This document shows, one piece after another, positions 27,970-33,482 of a stretch of DNA of 47,665 nucleotides. Each line of letters opens with the position of its first letter. Positions within the stretch are counted from its first letter, which is position 1. Origin of the DNA: Flavobacterium sp. (GTDB lineage: Bacteria > Bacteroidota > Bacteroidia > Flavobacteriales > Flavobacteriaceae); the NCBI GenBank assembly GCA_024644805.1, contig JAHEHC010000002.1:1840-49504 (forward strand), read 5' to 3'. Position numbers and translations under genes: made by a program. Under the pieces are notes generated by a model that saw only the letters and a program-made list of their open reading frames with translations, did not search any database and was not told the DNA's origin.

Positions 27970-29349
27970 TTAGCGTATTCCTTCACGCCTAAGTGAAGCT
28001 GGTGTGAAATCTCTGTCAGTAAACTCCTGATTAAATTCATACATTTTTTCTTCATTATCTAAGCCCATGGCCAAATAACGACGAGAGTTAAAATCATGAT
28101 ACACTTCCAACGTACTCCAATGGGTCAAAATATCATAATAATTGATACAGTAAGCCACCGCATGACGAAACAACTCATTACGATTGTCATGCATATCAAC
28201 CAAATGAATTTGCCAGCTATCTTCATCAATATAGAAAGTACGCTTAGAATATAAATGTCGTAAGCCATCTTTTAATGTTGCTTCAACCACCCAAACACGG
28301 TGTTTTTCCCAACGCACATGTTCAGGGTTAATATGCCCAGCCTTCAAAATATCATGATACTTCAATATGCCACTATGAAGTTTATAACTGTTATAAGGTA
28401 TATAAATTTCTTTTTTACCCTTAAGCTCCCAGTTATAACGGTTTGGTGAACCATTAAACATATCAAAATCATCTGCGGTTCTTAAACCATCTGACGCAGT
28501 ACCTGGTGCATCATAAGCAACATTTGGTGCACGACGAACTCGACGTTGGCCTGTGTTATATGTCCAAGCTTGGCGTGGAGTTTTAATTTGATCCATTGGT
28601 TCATGAACTAAAAGTGCAGTACCTGCCAAACGGGCTGGGGTATTTATTTTTTGCTTATACTTAAACAATATATTTTCAATTGATAATGCCTCAGGTGTTG
28701 CATCTTTCATCGAATATTTTGGGAAAAACTTATCATCAAAACCAATAATAGTATAACTCCCATCTGGCATAGGCGCTGCCTGACCAACCCATCGTGAAAC
28801 GTTAACTCCCCGGAAACGCAACATATGATTCCAAATAACTTCAAGGCCATTATTTGGAACGGGGAATGGAATACCAATAGCTGATCCTTTAACCCCATTA
28901 CCACCTTCCACTAACTCAGCAGTAAAAGCGTATTTTTTTGTTGCTTCGTAAATATAATCAGGATATGAAGCAGTACGTCGGGATTGATAAACATTCATTT
29001 TAAAGCTATCAGGATAGACATCAAACATCTTCTGTTGTCCCTCACTTAAAAATGAACGATAAATGTCCAAATTTTCAATATCGATGGTAAACAACACTTC
29101 ATCACCTAGGAATGGGTCTGGATGATGGTCTCCTAATTCATAGCCTGCAGGTGGGTTAGTTATTGGGTCCCATGCAGGAATAGACCCATCGGTATTTCCA
29201 GCCATTTCAGCACCTAATGGTGTTAAATTATTTCCAAATTTATCTGCATTGGTTTGACTAATCTTATTACTGGTAATTGATGAGGTGAAAGACACCAATA
29301 TAAATGCAATCGCACTAGTAGCTAAAATTAATTTTTTCCAGTTATCCAT
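27970..29349 (-). CDS. DUF1329 exported protein, likely acquired
   Basis: The 459-residue protein has an N-terminal hydrophobic segment (about 8-26) acting as signal peptide. The DUF1329 domain follows: FGNNLTPLGAEMAGNTDGSIPAW, DPITNPPAGYELGDHHPDPF, TYNTGQRRVRRAPNVAYD, DDFDMFNGSPNRYNWELKGK, then SKRTFYIDEDSWQIHLVDMHDNR. This family has a LolB/LolA-like envelope fold and is common in marine and soil Gammaproteobacteria, where it is often next to DUF1302 and RND exporter genes. None of those partners is here. AT-rich, isolated and beside a tRNA locus, it is a plausible horizontal acquisition. Function unknown. Confidence 0.88.
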   Translation of the reverse strand: MDNWKKLILATSAIAFILVSFTSSITSNKISQTNADKFGNNLTPLGAEMAGNTDGSIPAWDPITNPPAGYELGDHHPDPFLGDEVLFTIDIENLDIYRSFLSEGQQKMFDVYPDSFKMNVYQSRRTASYPDYIYEATKKYAFTAELVEGGNGVKGSAIGIPFPVPNNGLEVIWNHMLRFRGVNVSRWVGQAAPMPDGSYTIIGFDDKFFPKYSMKDATPEALSIENILFKYKQKINTPARLAGTALLVHEPMDQIKTPRQAWTYNTGQRRVRRAPNVAYDAPGTASDGLRTADDFDMFNGSPNRYNWELKGKKEIYIPYNSYKLHSGILKYHDILKAGHINPEHVRWEKHRVWVVEATLKDGLRHLYSKRTFYIDEDSWQIHLVDMHDNRNELFRHAVAYCINYYDILTHWSTLEVYHDFNSRRYLAMGLDNEEKMYEFNQEFTDRDFTPASLRREGIR

Positions 29350-29546
29350 ATACAGTTATTATTTTTAGTGTTCTTATCCCGCAAATTTACTTATTAATTT
29401 ATTACACAGTCGCAATACTATAAGAAGAGAACAGATAATGATACAATAGATAAAAAAAAAGAAGATATATTTCAATATTATTGGGAATATTATCAAAGAG
29501 AAATCCGCAACATACTGAATAACAGTATAATTACGGATTTTTAAAG

Positions 29547-29561
29547 TACTGAAGGCGGGAA
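29547..29561 (-). repeat. Copy of the tRNA-Leu 3' end
   Basis: On the minus strand TCCCGCCTTCAGTA matches the last bases of tRNA-Leu (29789-29802), i.e. the end of the T-stem, the acceptor strand and the discriminator base. It lies about 240 bases downstream of the real gene, immediately next to hairpin module B. It could be a relic of a duplicated tRNA or an attachment site. Confidence 0.5.
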
Positions 29562-29609
29562 TTACCTTCGGTGAGTCCCGCTACAACATCTTGAAAAAAG
29601 CAAGACCAC
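29555..29609. repeat. Hairpin module, copy B
   Basis: Outer arms GCGGGA (29555-29560) and TCCCGC (29576-29581) enclose an inner stem ACC-ttc-GGT. They are followed by CAACATCTTGAAAAAAGCAA and GACCAC, which contains a second small hairpin (TCTTG/CAAGA). The same order is found in copy A, 72-78 bases away, with a different inner stem. Confidence 0.65.
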
Positions 29610-29626
29610 TCACAAACTACAGAACT

Positions 29627-29687
29627 GCGGGAATTTCGGTCAGAGACCGAGAGTCCCGCTTCAACATCTTGAAAAAAGCAAGACCAC
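29627..29687. repeat. Hairpin module, copy A
   Basis: Outer arms GCGGGA (29627-29632) and TCCCGC (29654-29659) are identical to copy B. The inner stem is TCGGTC (29636-29641) with GACCGA (29645-29650), 6 bases longer overall than in copy B yet still fully paired. The following 27 bases match copy B apart from one position (29660-29661). Confidence 0.65.
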
Positions 29688-29701
29688 AGATGTGGTCTTT
29701 T
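29680..29701 (-). terminator. Terminator-like hairpin AAGACCACA/TGTGGTCTT
   Basis: A perfect 9-base dyad (29680-29688 with 29691-29699). On the minus strand it is followed by GC and six T. It also leads into T-rich sequence on the plus strand. It could be a backup terminator for the tRNA transcript. Confidence 0.55.
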
Positions 29702-29702
29702 G

Positions 29703-29755
29703 TTTGTTCCTCTCAAAAATGCTAGAACAAGTTCTGCATTTTTTCGAGAAACAAA
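29703..29755. repeat. 53-base imperfect long hairpin
   Basis: TTTGTT pairs with AACAAA, CTC with GAG, AAAAATGC with GCATTTTT, and AGAAC with GTTCT around a 2-base loop: 22 pairs in all with two small internal mismatches and one bulge. It lies between the tRNA terminator and the hairpin modules, with no coding role. Confidence 0.6.
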
Positions 29756-29783
29756 AAAGCCATGACTTTCGTCTTGGCTTTTT
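29753..29783. terminator. Terminator of the tRNA-Gly/tRNA-Leu transcript
   Basis: AAAAAGCCA and TGGCTTTTT enclose an inner GAC-tttc-GTC stem. On the minus strand the stem begins 6 bases after the tRNA-Leu 3' end and ends in a T-run, as expected for a tRNA operon terminator. It is symmetrical. Confidence 0.85.
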
Positions 29784-29788
29784 ATCTG

Positions 29789-29874
29789 TACTGAAGGCGG
29801 GACTTGAACCCGCACGAGCATTGCTGCTCATTGGATTTTAAGTCCAACGTGTCTACCAATTCCACCACTTCAGC
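29789..29874 (-). tRNA. tRNA-Leu (anticodon TAA)
   Basis: An 86-base class II tRNA. The acceptor strand GCTGAAG pairs with CTTCAGT (one G-T pair), the discriminator is A, and the anticodon stem TTGGA/TCCAA holds loop CTTAAAA with TAA at 29840-29838. A long variable arm (GAGCAGCAATGCTC region) and T-arm GCGGGTTCAAGTCCCGC are present. CCA is not encoded. It follows tRNA-Gly on the same strand. Confidence 0.96.
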
Positions 29875-29902
29875 AACTATTATTGGTAGTAATCAATTCA
29901 AA

Positions 29903-29927
29903 GCTCATTGAGCTTGTCGAAATGAGC
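29903..29927. repeat. REP-like palindrome abutting tRNA-Gly
   Basis: GCTCATT (29903-29909) pairs with AATGAGC (29921-29927) around the loop GAGCTTGTCGA. The same loop core occurs in the palindrome inside mutS (32398-32420). The right arm overlaps the last 3 bases of tRNA-Gly, so this element lies exactly at the mature 3' end in the Gly-Leu spacer. Confidence 0.7.
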
Positions 29928-29997
29928 GAAAAACGGGATTCGAACCCGCGACCCCCACCTTGGCAAGGTGGTGCTCTACCAGCTGAGCTATTTTCGC
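29925..29997 (-). tRNA. tRNA-Gly (anticodon GCC)
   Basis: A 73-base tRNA with acceptor GCGAAAA/TTTTCGC, discriminator T (normal for Gly), D-arm AGCTCAGCTGGTAGAGC, anticodon stem-loop CCACCTTGCCAAGGTGG giving GCC, and T-arm GCGGGTTCGAATCCCG. CCA is not encoded. It is the first gene of a two-tRNA transcript with tRNA-Leu. Confidence 0.96.
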
Positions 29998-30014
29998 AGT
30001 ATCAGAAAATAGCT
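29986..30014. repeat. Inverted repeat linking tRNA-Gly 5' end and its leader
   Basis: AGCTATTTT (29986-29994, inside the 5' end of tRNA-Gly) has a perfect inverted copy AAAATAGCT (30006-30014) in the leader. In the precursor RNA the leader could pair with the 5' acceptor/D region and compete with tRNA folding. Confidence 0.5.
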
Positions 30015-30041
30015 TTCTAAGATCAAAGGGTAAATAACCTC

Positions 30042-30079
30042 ATGCTCTACTCCCGAGGACTCGGGAAGCTATTTTCGCA
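30042..30079 (-). pseudogene. tRNA-Gly 5' fragment interrupted by a palindrome
   Basis: TGCTCTAC and AGCTATTTTCGCA, which are the D-arm and 5' acceptor of tRNA-Gly (plus-strand view), reappear here. They are joined by the palindrome TCCCGAGGACTCGGGA in place of the D-loop bases CAGCTG. No anticodon arm or T-arm is present, so this is a partial copy, not a functional tRNA. Confidence 0.6.
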
Positions 30080-30179
30080 TTTTATTCTAGAACTTCGCTT
30101 CAATGACAAAGCGGTGGCAAATTTAAAACATTTAGAACAATTGCCATCTATTTTTTAAAAAAAAGCGAACTTGAAATCA

Positions 30180-32816
30180 CTATTTCTTAAACTTGATATT
30201 GGCCTTGGGCTGAAGCATCCTCTTGATCTCATTCAATTTCATCAAAGCCTCTACCGGGGTCAACGTATCGATGTCGATGTCCAATATCTCATCACGTAAT
30301 TCCTCCAATAAGGGATCGTCCAGCTTGAAGAAACTTAATTGCATTTCCTCTTTGGACAATTCCTTGAGCTCGTCGGTGAGCTCTTCCGATGAATGGGACT
30401 TCTCCAATCTCTTTAATATCTTATGCGCTCGCTGTAACACCTGTTTGGGCATCCCTGCCATCTTGGCCACATGGATCCCAAAACTGTGGTGAGATCCCCC
30501 GGGAACCAATTTCCGTAGGAATAACACCTTATCCTTAAGTTCCTTGACCGACACATTGTAGTTCTTGATGCGATCGAAGGTTTCTGTCATCTCATTCAGC
30601 TCATGATAGTGAGTAGCAAATAAGGTCTTGGCCCTGGTTGGGTGTTCATGCAGATACTCGCTAATGGCCCAGGCAATTGAGATCCCATCATAGGTGCTGG
30701 TACCCCTTCCTATCTCGTCCAACAACACCAGACTTCTATCCGAGATATTATTCAAAATACTGGCGGCTTCATTCATCTCCACCATAAAAGTCGATTCGCC
30801 CATCGATATATTATCACTGGCTCCCACTCTGGTGAATATTTTATCCACTAAGCCCAACCGAGCTTCCTTGGCAGGCACAAAACTTCCGATCTGTGCCATG
30901 AGGACGATCAATGCAGTTTGCCTCAATATGGCCGATTTACCACTCATGTTGGGACCGGTGATCATGATGATCTGTTGCATATCCCGATCTAGGAACACAT
31001 CATTGGGAATGAATGGAGTGTCGGATGGTAATTGCTTTTCTATGACCGGATGTCGCCCTTCCTTGATATCAATTTCGTAGGTGTCATCGATCAAGGGTCT
31101 GGAATAATTGGACCCGATTGCCTGAGTTGCGAACGATGACAAGCAATCCAATGTTGCAATTCCTTTGGCGTTTTGTTGAACCTCGGGAATGAACTGAGCC
31201 ATCCACGAGATCAATTCACCGAAAAGTTCCTGTTCCAATATTCCGATCTTTTCCTCTGCTCCCAGGATCTTGGATTCGTATTCTTTTAGTTCTTCTGTGA
31301 TATATCGTTCGGCACTGACCAAGGTCTGCTTTCTGATCCATTCCTCAGGCACCTTGTCCTTATGAGTGTTTCTCACTTCGATATAATAACCAAAGACATT
31401 ATTGGATGCGATCTTTAACGAACTGATCCCAGTCCTTTTTGCTTCACGCTCCAGCATAGTATCCAAATAATCCTTTCCTCCTGTGGCAATGGACCTCAAT
31501 TCATCCAATTCCTCATCCACTCCTTTGGCGATAACATTTCCCTTTTGAATAGATACCGGAACCTCTTCTTTTAATGTATTTCCGATCCGTTCCCTGAGGA
31601 TCTTACAATCCATCAATTGTTCCCCGATGATCCTCAATGATTCATTTTTAGCACCGGAGATCCGTTCCTTTACAGGTAGAATTGCCCCCAATGATCTTTT
31701 AAGTTGATTGACCTCTCTGGGGTTGACCTTACCGGTTGCTATCTTGGATATGAGTCGTTCCAGATCTCCGATCTGTTTTATTTGGATCTGTATCGTTTCC
31801 AACACCTTCTCATCGTCTATCAAATAACTTACCACCTCATGCCGTTCGGTGATCTTATCTTTGCTTTTCAGTGGAAGAGCGATCCATCTCTTTAGCAGGC
31901 GTCCACCCATTGGTGAAATGGTCCTGTCGATGACGTCCATCAAGGTCACCGCTTGTTGAGCCGTTGAATAATATAACTCCAGATTCTTTATCGTGAAACG
32001 ATCCATCCAAACATGATCGTCTTCCGTGATCCTGGATATCTTTGAAATATGCTGCAATCTGTCATGGCGCGTCTCACTCAGATAATGCAAGGCTGCACCT
32101 GATGCAATGATCCCATCTTCCATATCCTGTATTCCAAAACCTTTTAAAGAACTGGTTCTAAAATGCTTGTTCAATGTTTCAACAGCATAGTCTATCTGAA
32201 ACACCCAATCCTCCAGATAGAACACATGGTATTCATCGCCGAACAATTCGTTGAATAGTTTCCTTTTTTGCTTTGAAAATAGGATCTCAGAAGGTCGGAA
32301 GTTTTGTAATAATTTGTCAATATATTCGGATGAACCCTGAGCAGTAAGAAACTCACCGGTCGACACATCCAAAAACGAGACCCCAATATTATTTTGGGAG
32401 GCTGAGCTTGTCGAAGCCTCAAAATGGATAGCCGCCAAAAAATTATTCGATTTGGCCAGCAGAATATCATCGTTCAGAGCCACCCCAGGTGTCACCAATT
32501 CGGTGACCCCTCTCTTGACTATCTTTTTGGTCTTTTTCGGATCTTCAAGCTGATCACAAATGGCTACCCGACATCCGGCTTTGACCAATTTCGGCAAATA
32601 AGTATTCAATGAATGATGGGGGAATCCTGCCAATTCGGTCATATCGCCACCATTATTTCGTGCAGTGAGTGTTATGTTCAATATTCCTGCAGCACGAACA
32701 GCATCGGCTCCAAAGGTCTCATAGAAATCGCCCACTCTGAACAATAGCAATGCATCAGGATACTTAGCCTTGATCGTATTGTATTGTTTCATCAATGGAG
32801 TTACTTTCTTCGTCAT
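30180..32816 (-). CDS. mutS: DNA mismatch repair ATPase MutS
   Basis: Recognises mismatches and starts methyl-independent repair. It has 878 residues, normal length. The mismatch-reading Phe-x-Glu is in [13 protein letters not shown]; the ATPase has Walker [33 protein letters not shown] and [20 protein letters not shown], and the C-terminus has helix-turn-helix/dimer elements. Residues about 133-140 (EASTSSAS) are encoded by an in-frame REP-like palindrome (32398-32420), an insertion in the connector of the N-terminal part. The gene is divergent from the trmH-like gene. No mutL is adjacent. Confidence 0.97.
32398..32420. repeat. REP-like palindrome inside mutS
   Basis: GAGGCT (32398-32403) and AGCCTC (32415-32420) are complementary arms around GAGCTTGTCGA-type sequence, the same core as the element at 29903-29927. 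The arms extend outwards by ATTTT/AAAAT across small mismatches. It is read in frame in mutS as the residues EASTSSAS. Confidence 0.7.
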
Positions 32817-32914
32817 AATGGAATGTAGCTGAATGAGCTAAAGTAGAAAAAAGGTTGGTTTTTTAAAATGCATTTCATTGTAAATATTGACTTTTATCAA
32901 CAATTTTCAAATCG

Positions 32915-32922
32915 TACCTTTG
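32915..32922 (+). promoter_or_regulatory. -7 element TACCTTTG for the trmH-like gene
   Basis: An exact TAnnTTTG match 20 bases upstream of the ATG at 32943. TTG at 32887-32889 is 25 bases away, slightly longer than usual spacing. Confidence 0.5.
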
Positions 32923-32942
32923 CTTTTTCATAATAGACCTAA

Positions 32943-33482
32943 ATGAAATTTAGAAAATTAAAGAATAGTGAGCTCGACCGGATCTCTGCTGAAGAATATA
33001 AGTCTTCCATAAAAACGCCTCTCATCGTTATCCTGGATAATATTAGAAGTCTGAATAATATAGGATCGGTATTTCGTACGGCAGATGCTTTCCTGATCGA
33101 GAAGATCTATCTCTGCGGAATCACGGCGCAACCCCCACATAAGGATATACATAAGACCGCTTTGGGGGCTACCGATAGTGTGGAATGGGAATATGTTGAG
33201 AATATAGCAGAACTTCTTCAAAGCCTAAAGGATCGAAACGTTGTAATCCTTAGTATAGAACAATCTGAGGGTTCAATACCACTTAATGATTTTAAGGTTA
33301 AAAATGAAACGACCTATGCTGTTATATTTGGGAATGAGGTAAAAGGTGTCTCTCAAGAAGTTGTCTCAAAAAGCGATGCTGTTATCGAAATTCCACAATG
33401 CGGTACCAAGCATTCTTTGAATATATCAGTGAGTACCGGTGTGGTGATTTGGGATCTGTTCTGCAAGTTGAAAAGTCTTTGA
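32943..33482 (+). CDS. TrmH/SpoU-family RNA 2'-O-methyltransferase
   Basis: A 179-residue protein of the SPOUT knot-fold methyltransferases that add a 2'-O-methyl group to tRNA or rRNA using S-adenosylmethionine. The three SpoU motifs are visible: LDNIRSLNNIGSVFRTADAF (motif 1), VIFGNEVKGVSQEVV (motif 2) and IPQCGTKHSLNISVSTGVVIW (motif 3, with the SAM-binding Asn-Ile-Ser). It lacks an N-terminal RNA-binding extension. Its exact target (for instance Gm18 of tRNA) is not decidable. It is divergent from mutS. Confidence 0.92.
   Translation: MKFRKLKNSELDRISAEEYKSSIKTPLIVILDNIRSLNNIGSVFRTADAFLIEKIYLCGITAQPPHKDIHKTALGATDSVEWEYVENIAELLQSLKDRNVVILSIEQSEGSIPLNDFKVKNETTYAVIFGNEVKGVSQEVVSKSDAVIEIPQCGTKHSLNISVSTGVVIWDLFCKLKSL

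Follow-up and report, generated by a model that had tools for sequence, protein, structure and literature searches.

An in-frame REP-like insertion in the mutS gene of a member of the Flavobacteriaceae

The mutS palindrome and its setting

The window (the whole stretch of DNA that was analysed, 47,665 nt) belongs to genome G000, a 2.2-Mb draft in 182 contigs which is 87.64% complete. Judged by its MutS protein, G000 is placed in the Flavobacteriaceae, and the nearest named relatives by this protein include Altibacter, Halomarinibacterium, and Aequorivita (79-81% identical). The relevant features are as follows, with all positions counted in the window.

29903..29927: second copy of the palindrome, GCTCAT-TGAGCTTGTCGAA-ATGAGC, between tRNA-Leu and tRNA-Gly
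30180..32816, minus strand: mutS, 878 aa; the insert lies within MutS domain II (PF05188, residues 125-257)
32397..32417, minus strand: net insert GCT TCG ACA AGC TCA GCC TCC (ASTSSAS), 21 nt, separated from the conserved HF by one codon
32398..32420, plus-strand reading: palindrome GAGGC-TGAGCTTGTCGAA-GCCTC inside mutS, by direct reading; one of six copies in G000
32403..32415, plus strand: 13-nt core TGAGCTTGTCGAA of the mutS palindrome; on the coding strand of mutS it is TTCGACAAGCTCA, part of ASTSSA

The mutS product matches the NCBIfam MutS model with 1016.9 bits (cut-off 480). The gene had been called essential in the original prediction, which does not hold, as mutS is normally not essential. 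The full mutS palindrome is GAGGCTGAGCTTGTCGAAGCCTC (32398-32420), and the reading frame runs through it as EASTSSAS. It had been proposed to share its core with a REP next to tRNA-Gly, and this is confirmed: the 11-nt core GAGCTTGTCGA has two exact matches in the window (29910-29920 and 32404-32414), 2,494 nt apart. Taken alone, two core copies in one window are weak evidence, because 7 of 100 shuffled windows reach two matches when up to one mismatch is allowed (mean 0.49 matches of the 11-nt core).

The right arm of the second copy overlaps the final 4 nt of tRNA-Gly (29924-29997, minus strand), and that arm (29924-29927) is thus built partly from the tRNA's own end bases. In the mutS copy, the outer arm GAG (32418-32420) is the codon preceding the insert. 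The arms of the repeat may partly derive from flanks that were already present before insertion.

Other repeats were seen in the vicinity. Beside tRNA-Leu, the region 29546-29805 has two 37-nt direct repeats at 29573-29609 and 29651-29687 (97% alike), and the 18 nt at 29546-29563 nearly repeat the 3' end of tRNA-Leu; this looks like a local duplication at a tRNA. A different small hairpin, CCCGAG-GA-CTCGGG, was found by eye in the interval separating tRNA-Gly from the mutS 3' end (30052-30065). When region 29300-33000 was compared to Rfam, only the two tRNAs passed the thresholds; the one other match, to STnc400, was at chance level (25.8 bits, threshold 80) and was rejected.

A repeat with a fixed core and covarying arms

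The 13-nt core TGAGCTTGTCGAA occurs six times in G000, compared to 0 for a control with the reversed pattern; for the 11-nt core, the counts are six and two. The six copies share the core and have different, largely self-complementary arms, and in all six the three pairs adjoining the core are complementary. In the genus, 62 core copies are found in 9 of 19 genomes (control: 0), and the family Flavobacteriaceae has 570 copies in 96 of 249 genomes, with up to 37 per genome (control: 15 copies in 14 genomes). The core is not specific to the genus of G000. Across the phylum, 130 of 296 genomes have it (at most 45 copies in one genome), but many of the single matches at this level are due to chance, because about 49 genomes also have the control pattern.

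Covariation of the arms was analysed in 184 distinct copies (all 62 from the genus and 122 of the 570 family copies, from 30 other genomes of the family; copies with less than 30 nt of flanking sequence are omitted). Counted outward from the core, pairs 1, 2, and 3 are complementary in 167, 154, and 151 of these copies (shuffle means 123.7, 55.6, and 61.9), and none of 500 shuffles reached the observed value for any of the three. At arm positions two and three, the pairs are of several types. The signal is weak for pairs 4 and 5 (88 and 59 of 184 paired; 6 and 12 of 500 shuffles attain these values) and is gone at pair 6, so that the demonstrated covarying stem is short. The folding energy is unremarkable, with z about -1.5 for the two copies in the window (range -1.05 to -1.79). 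A stem of 8 bp would require two G-A pairs within the core, and the DNA energy model did not form them. The real evidence for the element is the covariation of the arms across copies, rather than folding energy. Chance as the origin of the palindrome is ruled out by the control counts together with the arm covariation. The original assignment as a REP-like element is supported.

By a mechanical ORF rule, 140 of the 184 copies lie between genes (92 flanked by genes of the same direction, 38 in convergent and 10 in divergent gaps), 28 are inside ORFs, and 16 are unresolved. For the 130 measurable copies, the closest 3' end of a gene is a median of 53.5 nt away; intergenic copies in such positions could act as an RNA hairpin. 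Sixteen copy pairs are found within 150 nt, and seven of these are opposite-oriented and 44-46 nt apart. The repeat is thus an imperfect palindrome in the range of 20-40 nt with many dispersed copies, as expected for a REP, even though six copies in G000 is a low number; it is also mostly extragenic, near gene 3' ends, and more often convergent than divergent. The original prediction had called for a genome-wide count of copies and of those inside genes; only the mutS copy of the six in G000 is inside a gene (ORFs of at least 120 aa with a start codon). TGTC is found directly before the stem in 59 of the 184 copies, compared to about 1.1 per flank position, and in none of the six G000 copies, mutS copy included. 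With respect to a CCA tail, the bases after the stem showed no CCA consensus among the 184 copies.

The insertion in MutS and in other proteins

The turn between the conserved HF and G[VI]SF has 12 codons in G000 compared to 5 in relatives without the insert, and the segment is absent from the mutS of relatives, as had been anticipated. The palindrome had been described as an insert of eight residues, EASTSSAS. The in-frame reading of these residues stands; the net insert comprises only seven residues (21 nt), and the same 7-residue gap is seen between E. coli MutS and G000 MutS. The codon preceding the insert is GAG in G000, whereas relatives have GGN (Gly), and the left edge of the G000 insert is therefore less certain. 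In a structure model, which is poor (mean pLDDT 55.1 from 22 sequences, confidence below 50 at residues 135-140), the insert lies between the predicted strands 126-132 and 144-150 of domain II, which fits the proposed expansion of a loop in the N-terminal part. The nearest other MutS is 83% identical, and the compared sequences hold no close strain pair with and without the exact insert. This is a real in-frame REP-like insertion in mutS. It is probably neutral for MutS. That it records a recent spread could be substantiated only in part: the arms are intact, but the insert is on G000's own long branch.

Beyond what had been predicted, the same codon boundary carries an insert in other genera. 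The same insert follows the same codon in G126 and G249, which belong to other genera, and in G017 from the same genus. In G126 and G249, as in G000, it is exactly 21 nt long (giving a turn of 12 codons), and its orientation and frame are identical. The insert in G017 has the same core at the same codon boundary, with different arms and four further codons. G005, the sister of G017 (100/100 support), has a second, slightly different palindrome at the MutS turn (L328), which apparently lies inside the remnant of the first, while G017 has only one. A more worn version, with 2 of 12 core bases changed, is present in G182. G417 and G259 are doubtful carriers, as four bases are changed and they are no better than G080, which is otherwise without likeness.

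A MutS match was obtained in 387 of 397 genomes, and the loops were drawn from the best ~150 of the 387. Thirty loci were taken (L457 yielded no loop, L455 was left out), together with six rows with long spans. The tree of 136 rows omits L433, L434, and L457, and a set of 89 rows was chosen from these to keep all expanded loops. Longer loops are present in 38 of the 89 rows and require at least 14 changes; as the rows were picked for expanded loops, 38 of 89 is not a frequency. Most of these loops show no palindrome by eye. Aequorivita lipolytica (L042:3001-5640) has a different palindrome, TTCCCGC-GCAG-GCGGGAA, in frame in the same MutS turn, and its close sister L041 has a 5-codon loop. Similarly, G342 (L439) has TTCCG-GCTCAGG-CGGAA in this turn, and its genus-mate G142 has 5 codons.

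Further genes carry in-frame copies when compared to orthologues; these comparisons rest on part of the orthologue rows, namely those fitting the search expression. In purL of G012, RLPFDTSTSSAYHSAQGKPWEK corresponds to RLEELKPWEK in G011, and at another site in purL of G120, EEHFDKLNVTSRKLGFDK corresponds to EENNKQLGFDK in G049 (three orthologues compared). The leuS gene of G070 has an in-frame copy in the editing domain. In metG of G015, the segment exceeds that of most genus-mates by just 2 codons, and this copy may be a replacement instead of a clean insertion. With mutS, purL, and leuS, in-frame insertion into conserved protein genes, a trait of Rickettsia palindromic elements, is observed against orthologues. 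Further ORFs with copies encode a sortilin-like protein (in G005; the surrounding peptide is the same in G015 and G017), a CusB-like adaptor (in G012), and, in G017, NamZ and BshC. All three arm pairs are present in 13 of the 28 intragenic copies, and six have at most one; the latter may be native sequence rather than insertions.

Two side observations concern other genes. The leuS editing-domain loop before VFTTRPDT (L399, L401, L417) varies in length and has different repeat-like inserts in several genera, and it looks like a second landing place. In G008 (L222:1883-2638), the element is at the junction of a GIY-YIG and an arsenate-reductase domain within one continuous ORF, which may be a fusion created by the repeat.

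Origin of the insertions and relation to known repeats

We consider it very likely that a REP-like repeat of the Flavobacteriaceae was inserted as a 21-nt unit in the turn that joins strands one and two of MutS domain II. Directly observed are the additional 21 nt and the frame in which they are read, as well as the occurrence of this insert at the same codon position in non-sister lineages. The inserts of the carriers would then represent separate gains. The repeat may move, or be copied, via a single strand that forms a hairpin, and the machinery for this would be one other than a resident Y1 (RAYT/IS200) transposase. Insertions would be retained only at sites where the 21 nt, read in an open frame, give a small, polar, and flexible peptide (STSS) in a turn, so that MutS still works. 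The turn may recur as a landing site since it is tolerant, and possibly also because it is preferred by the insertion step.

The agreement of the four carriers in orientation, frame, and codon boundary could also be due to a single ancient insertion in the family ancestor, which was inherited by the carriers and lost exactly many times elsewhere; the loops of many genus-mates, 4-5 codons above the family norm, could then be worn remnants. However, carriers G000, G017, G126, and G249 are scattered in MutS trees built without the loop (136 rows; 89 rows), and a single clade of the four is rejected (p-AU 6.58e-18, quick tree). Parsimony on the loop-free tree gives at least four changes for the four carriers and five with G182, counts which cannot tell gain from loss. 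Loops of 23-24 residues, without insert, are found in 98 of 136 tree rows and in both other-family rows that were read (L035, L036), so that many exact losses of 21 nt would be required. In addition, the codon before the insert fits the carrier's own relatives in three cases (GAT in G126 and G249, a Gly codon in G017). An ancient insertion is thus quite improbable, and parallel insertion is likely because the carriers do not form a clade. A parallel gain in several lineages is well supported, albeit not proved at the strain level; the short loop might possibly have been copied between lineages by recombination. Convergent selection for a Ser/Thr-rich MutS turn, with the palindrome as a by-product, would be in line with the small polar residues in which other expanded loops are likewise rich. 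It is contradicted by the codons for STSS, which are TCG ACA AGC TCA in G000, G017, and G126 and TCA ACA AGC TCA in the fourth carrier; such codon identity speaks against convergence at the protein level. The same residues encoded by unrelated codons in distant MutS proteins, which the original prediction had named as the finding that would make the palindrome a coincidence, were thus not encountered. As the same 13-nt core is also dispersed outside genes, with covarying arms, we regard convergence as hardly conceivable.

The size of the repeat, its hairpin and 3'-end placement, and the seven opposite-oriented pairs would also suit a classical REP that is mobilized in trans by a RAYT (Y1, PF01797) transposase, for which a search had been suggested. 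Y1 proteins occur in 96 of 249 family genomes, and core and Y1 lean together slightly (Y1 matches in 44 of 96 core-bearing genomes and in 52 of the 153 others; Fisher p = 0.08). Nevertheless, the PF01797 profile has no match in G000 (88% complete), in G005 (97% complete, 19 copies), or in G017, nor is there a Y1 match in the three core-richest family genomes (G220, G277, G249). Over the 249 genomes, high copy number is unlinked to Y1, which is present in 7 of 18 genomes with at least 10 copies compared to 89 of 231 others (p = 1.0). Among 49 loci around Y1 matches, the core is present in L188 only, which is from G129 (a genome with 13 copies), and a related motif was seen in two further loci. 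A resident RAYT is not supported, given its absence from G000, G005, and G017, the unlinked copy number, and the rarity of the core beside Y1, and these Y1/PF01797 searches yielded no mobilizing enzyme for the repeat. A RAYT might possibly have been lost or have gone unrecognized, but mobilization by such an enzyme is unlikely. We would give about as little weight to a functional insert, in which the hairpin or the extra peptide would tune mutS expression or activity (mutator control), by analogy to a speculation of Di Nocera et al. on REPs in repair genes. A repair gene is hit repeatedly here, and REPs are reported in excinuclease, uvrD, recBCD, polymerase I, and dnaE2 genes (PMC3733652); on the other hand, purL, leuS, and metG, which have no repair role, are also hit, and the hairpin in the G017 mutS copy is weak. 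Returning to the preferred reading of a REP-like repeat inserted as a 21-nt unit, one may speculate that the MutS domain II turn is a true target, at which a Y1-free machinery would put hairpin repeats from unrelated families at a single codon boundary in different genera; we hold this only tentatively and lean against it.

An intragenic REP-like element is of a known kind. The original prediction had considered intragenic REPs as rare, which needs qualification, as REPs inside DNA-repair genes and tRNA synthetases are a published class (Di Nocera, De Gregorio and Rocco 2013; PMC3733652). As described there, CGTC-tagged REPs have no dedicated transposase and include members in Bacteroidetes; in recB of two Xanthomonas species, REPs are found at about the same site; RPE-4 and RPE-6 are CGTC REPs; and the spread of REP-like repeats without RAYT is an open question, according to the conclusions of that paper. 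Like CGTC-tagged REPs, the repeat described here is a short palindrome near gene 3' ends with some intragenic copies, including insertions in a repair gene and a tRNA synthetase, and the TGTC before the stem in a subset of its copies is a stated CGTC variant. It differs by its fixed core with variable arms, by the lack of TGTC in all G000 copies, and by the lack of a CCA tail consensus. CGTC-tagged REPs have an unpaired tag at one end (CGTC, or the variants TGTC and CCTC), a stem of 8-9 bp, and a loop of 4-5 nt; of the stem of the present repeat, three outer covarying pairs are demonstrated.

With REP/RAYT systems (TnpA-REP), for which Bacteroidetes subclasses are listed in PMC6006769, the repeat has in common the hairpin size, the opposite-oriented pairs, and the extragenic placement, and it is set apart by its Y1-free richest genomes, its copy number unlinked to Y1, and its rarity beside Y1 genes. 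Rickettsia palindromic elements had been named as the main parallel, a fair comparison in that these palindromic repeats are translated in frame within conserved protein genes (PMC2229807). Classical elements of this type are 105-146 bp long, unlike the 21-nt mutS insert. In the one tested product described in that review, a guanylate kinase, the enzyme was active with changed substrate affinity.

In the literature listings and main-text passages covered, the TGAGCTTGTCGAA core was not found described as a repeat, nor was a REP in mutS. The main text of PMC3733652 contains neither mutS nor any of the Flavobacteriaceae terms used (its intragenic REPs are listed in Additional file 3), and none of the listed texts containing the core letters concerns a bacterial repeat, as judged by title and the start of the abstract. 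The design with fixed core and variable arms and the missing tag at the mutS copy were not encountered in the literature covered, nor was the repeated use of a single MutS codon boundary, which looks new.

Several lineages appear to have acquired an identical 21-nt unit in a 5-codon MutS turn, and unexpanded relatives are at hand for comparison, so that the length of the unit is fixed. The turn is thus a place for testing insertion, target choice, and tolerance, and the repeat represents a source of new peptide sequence for conserved proteins outside Rickettsia.
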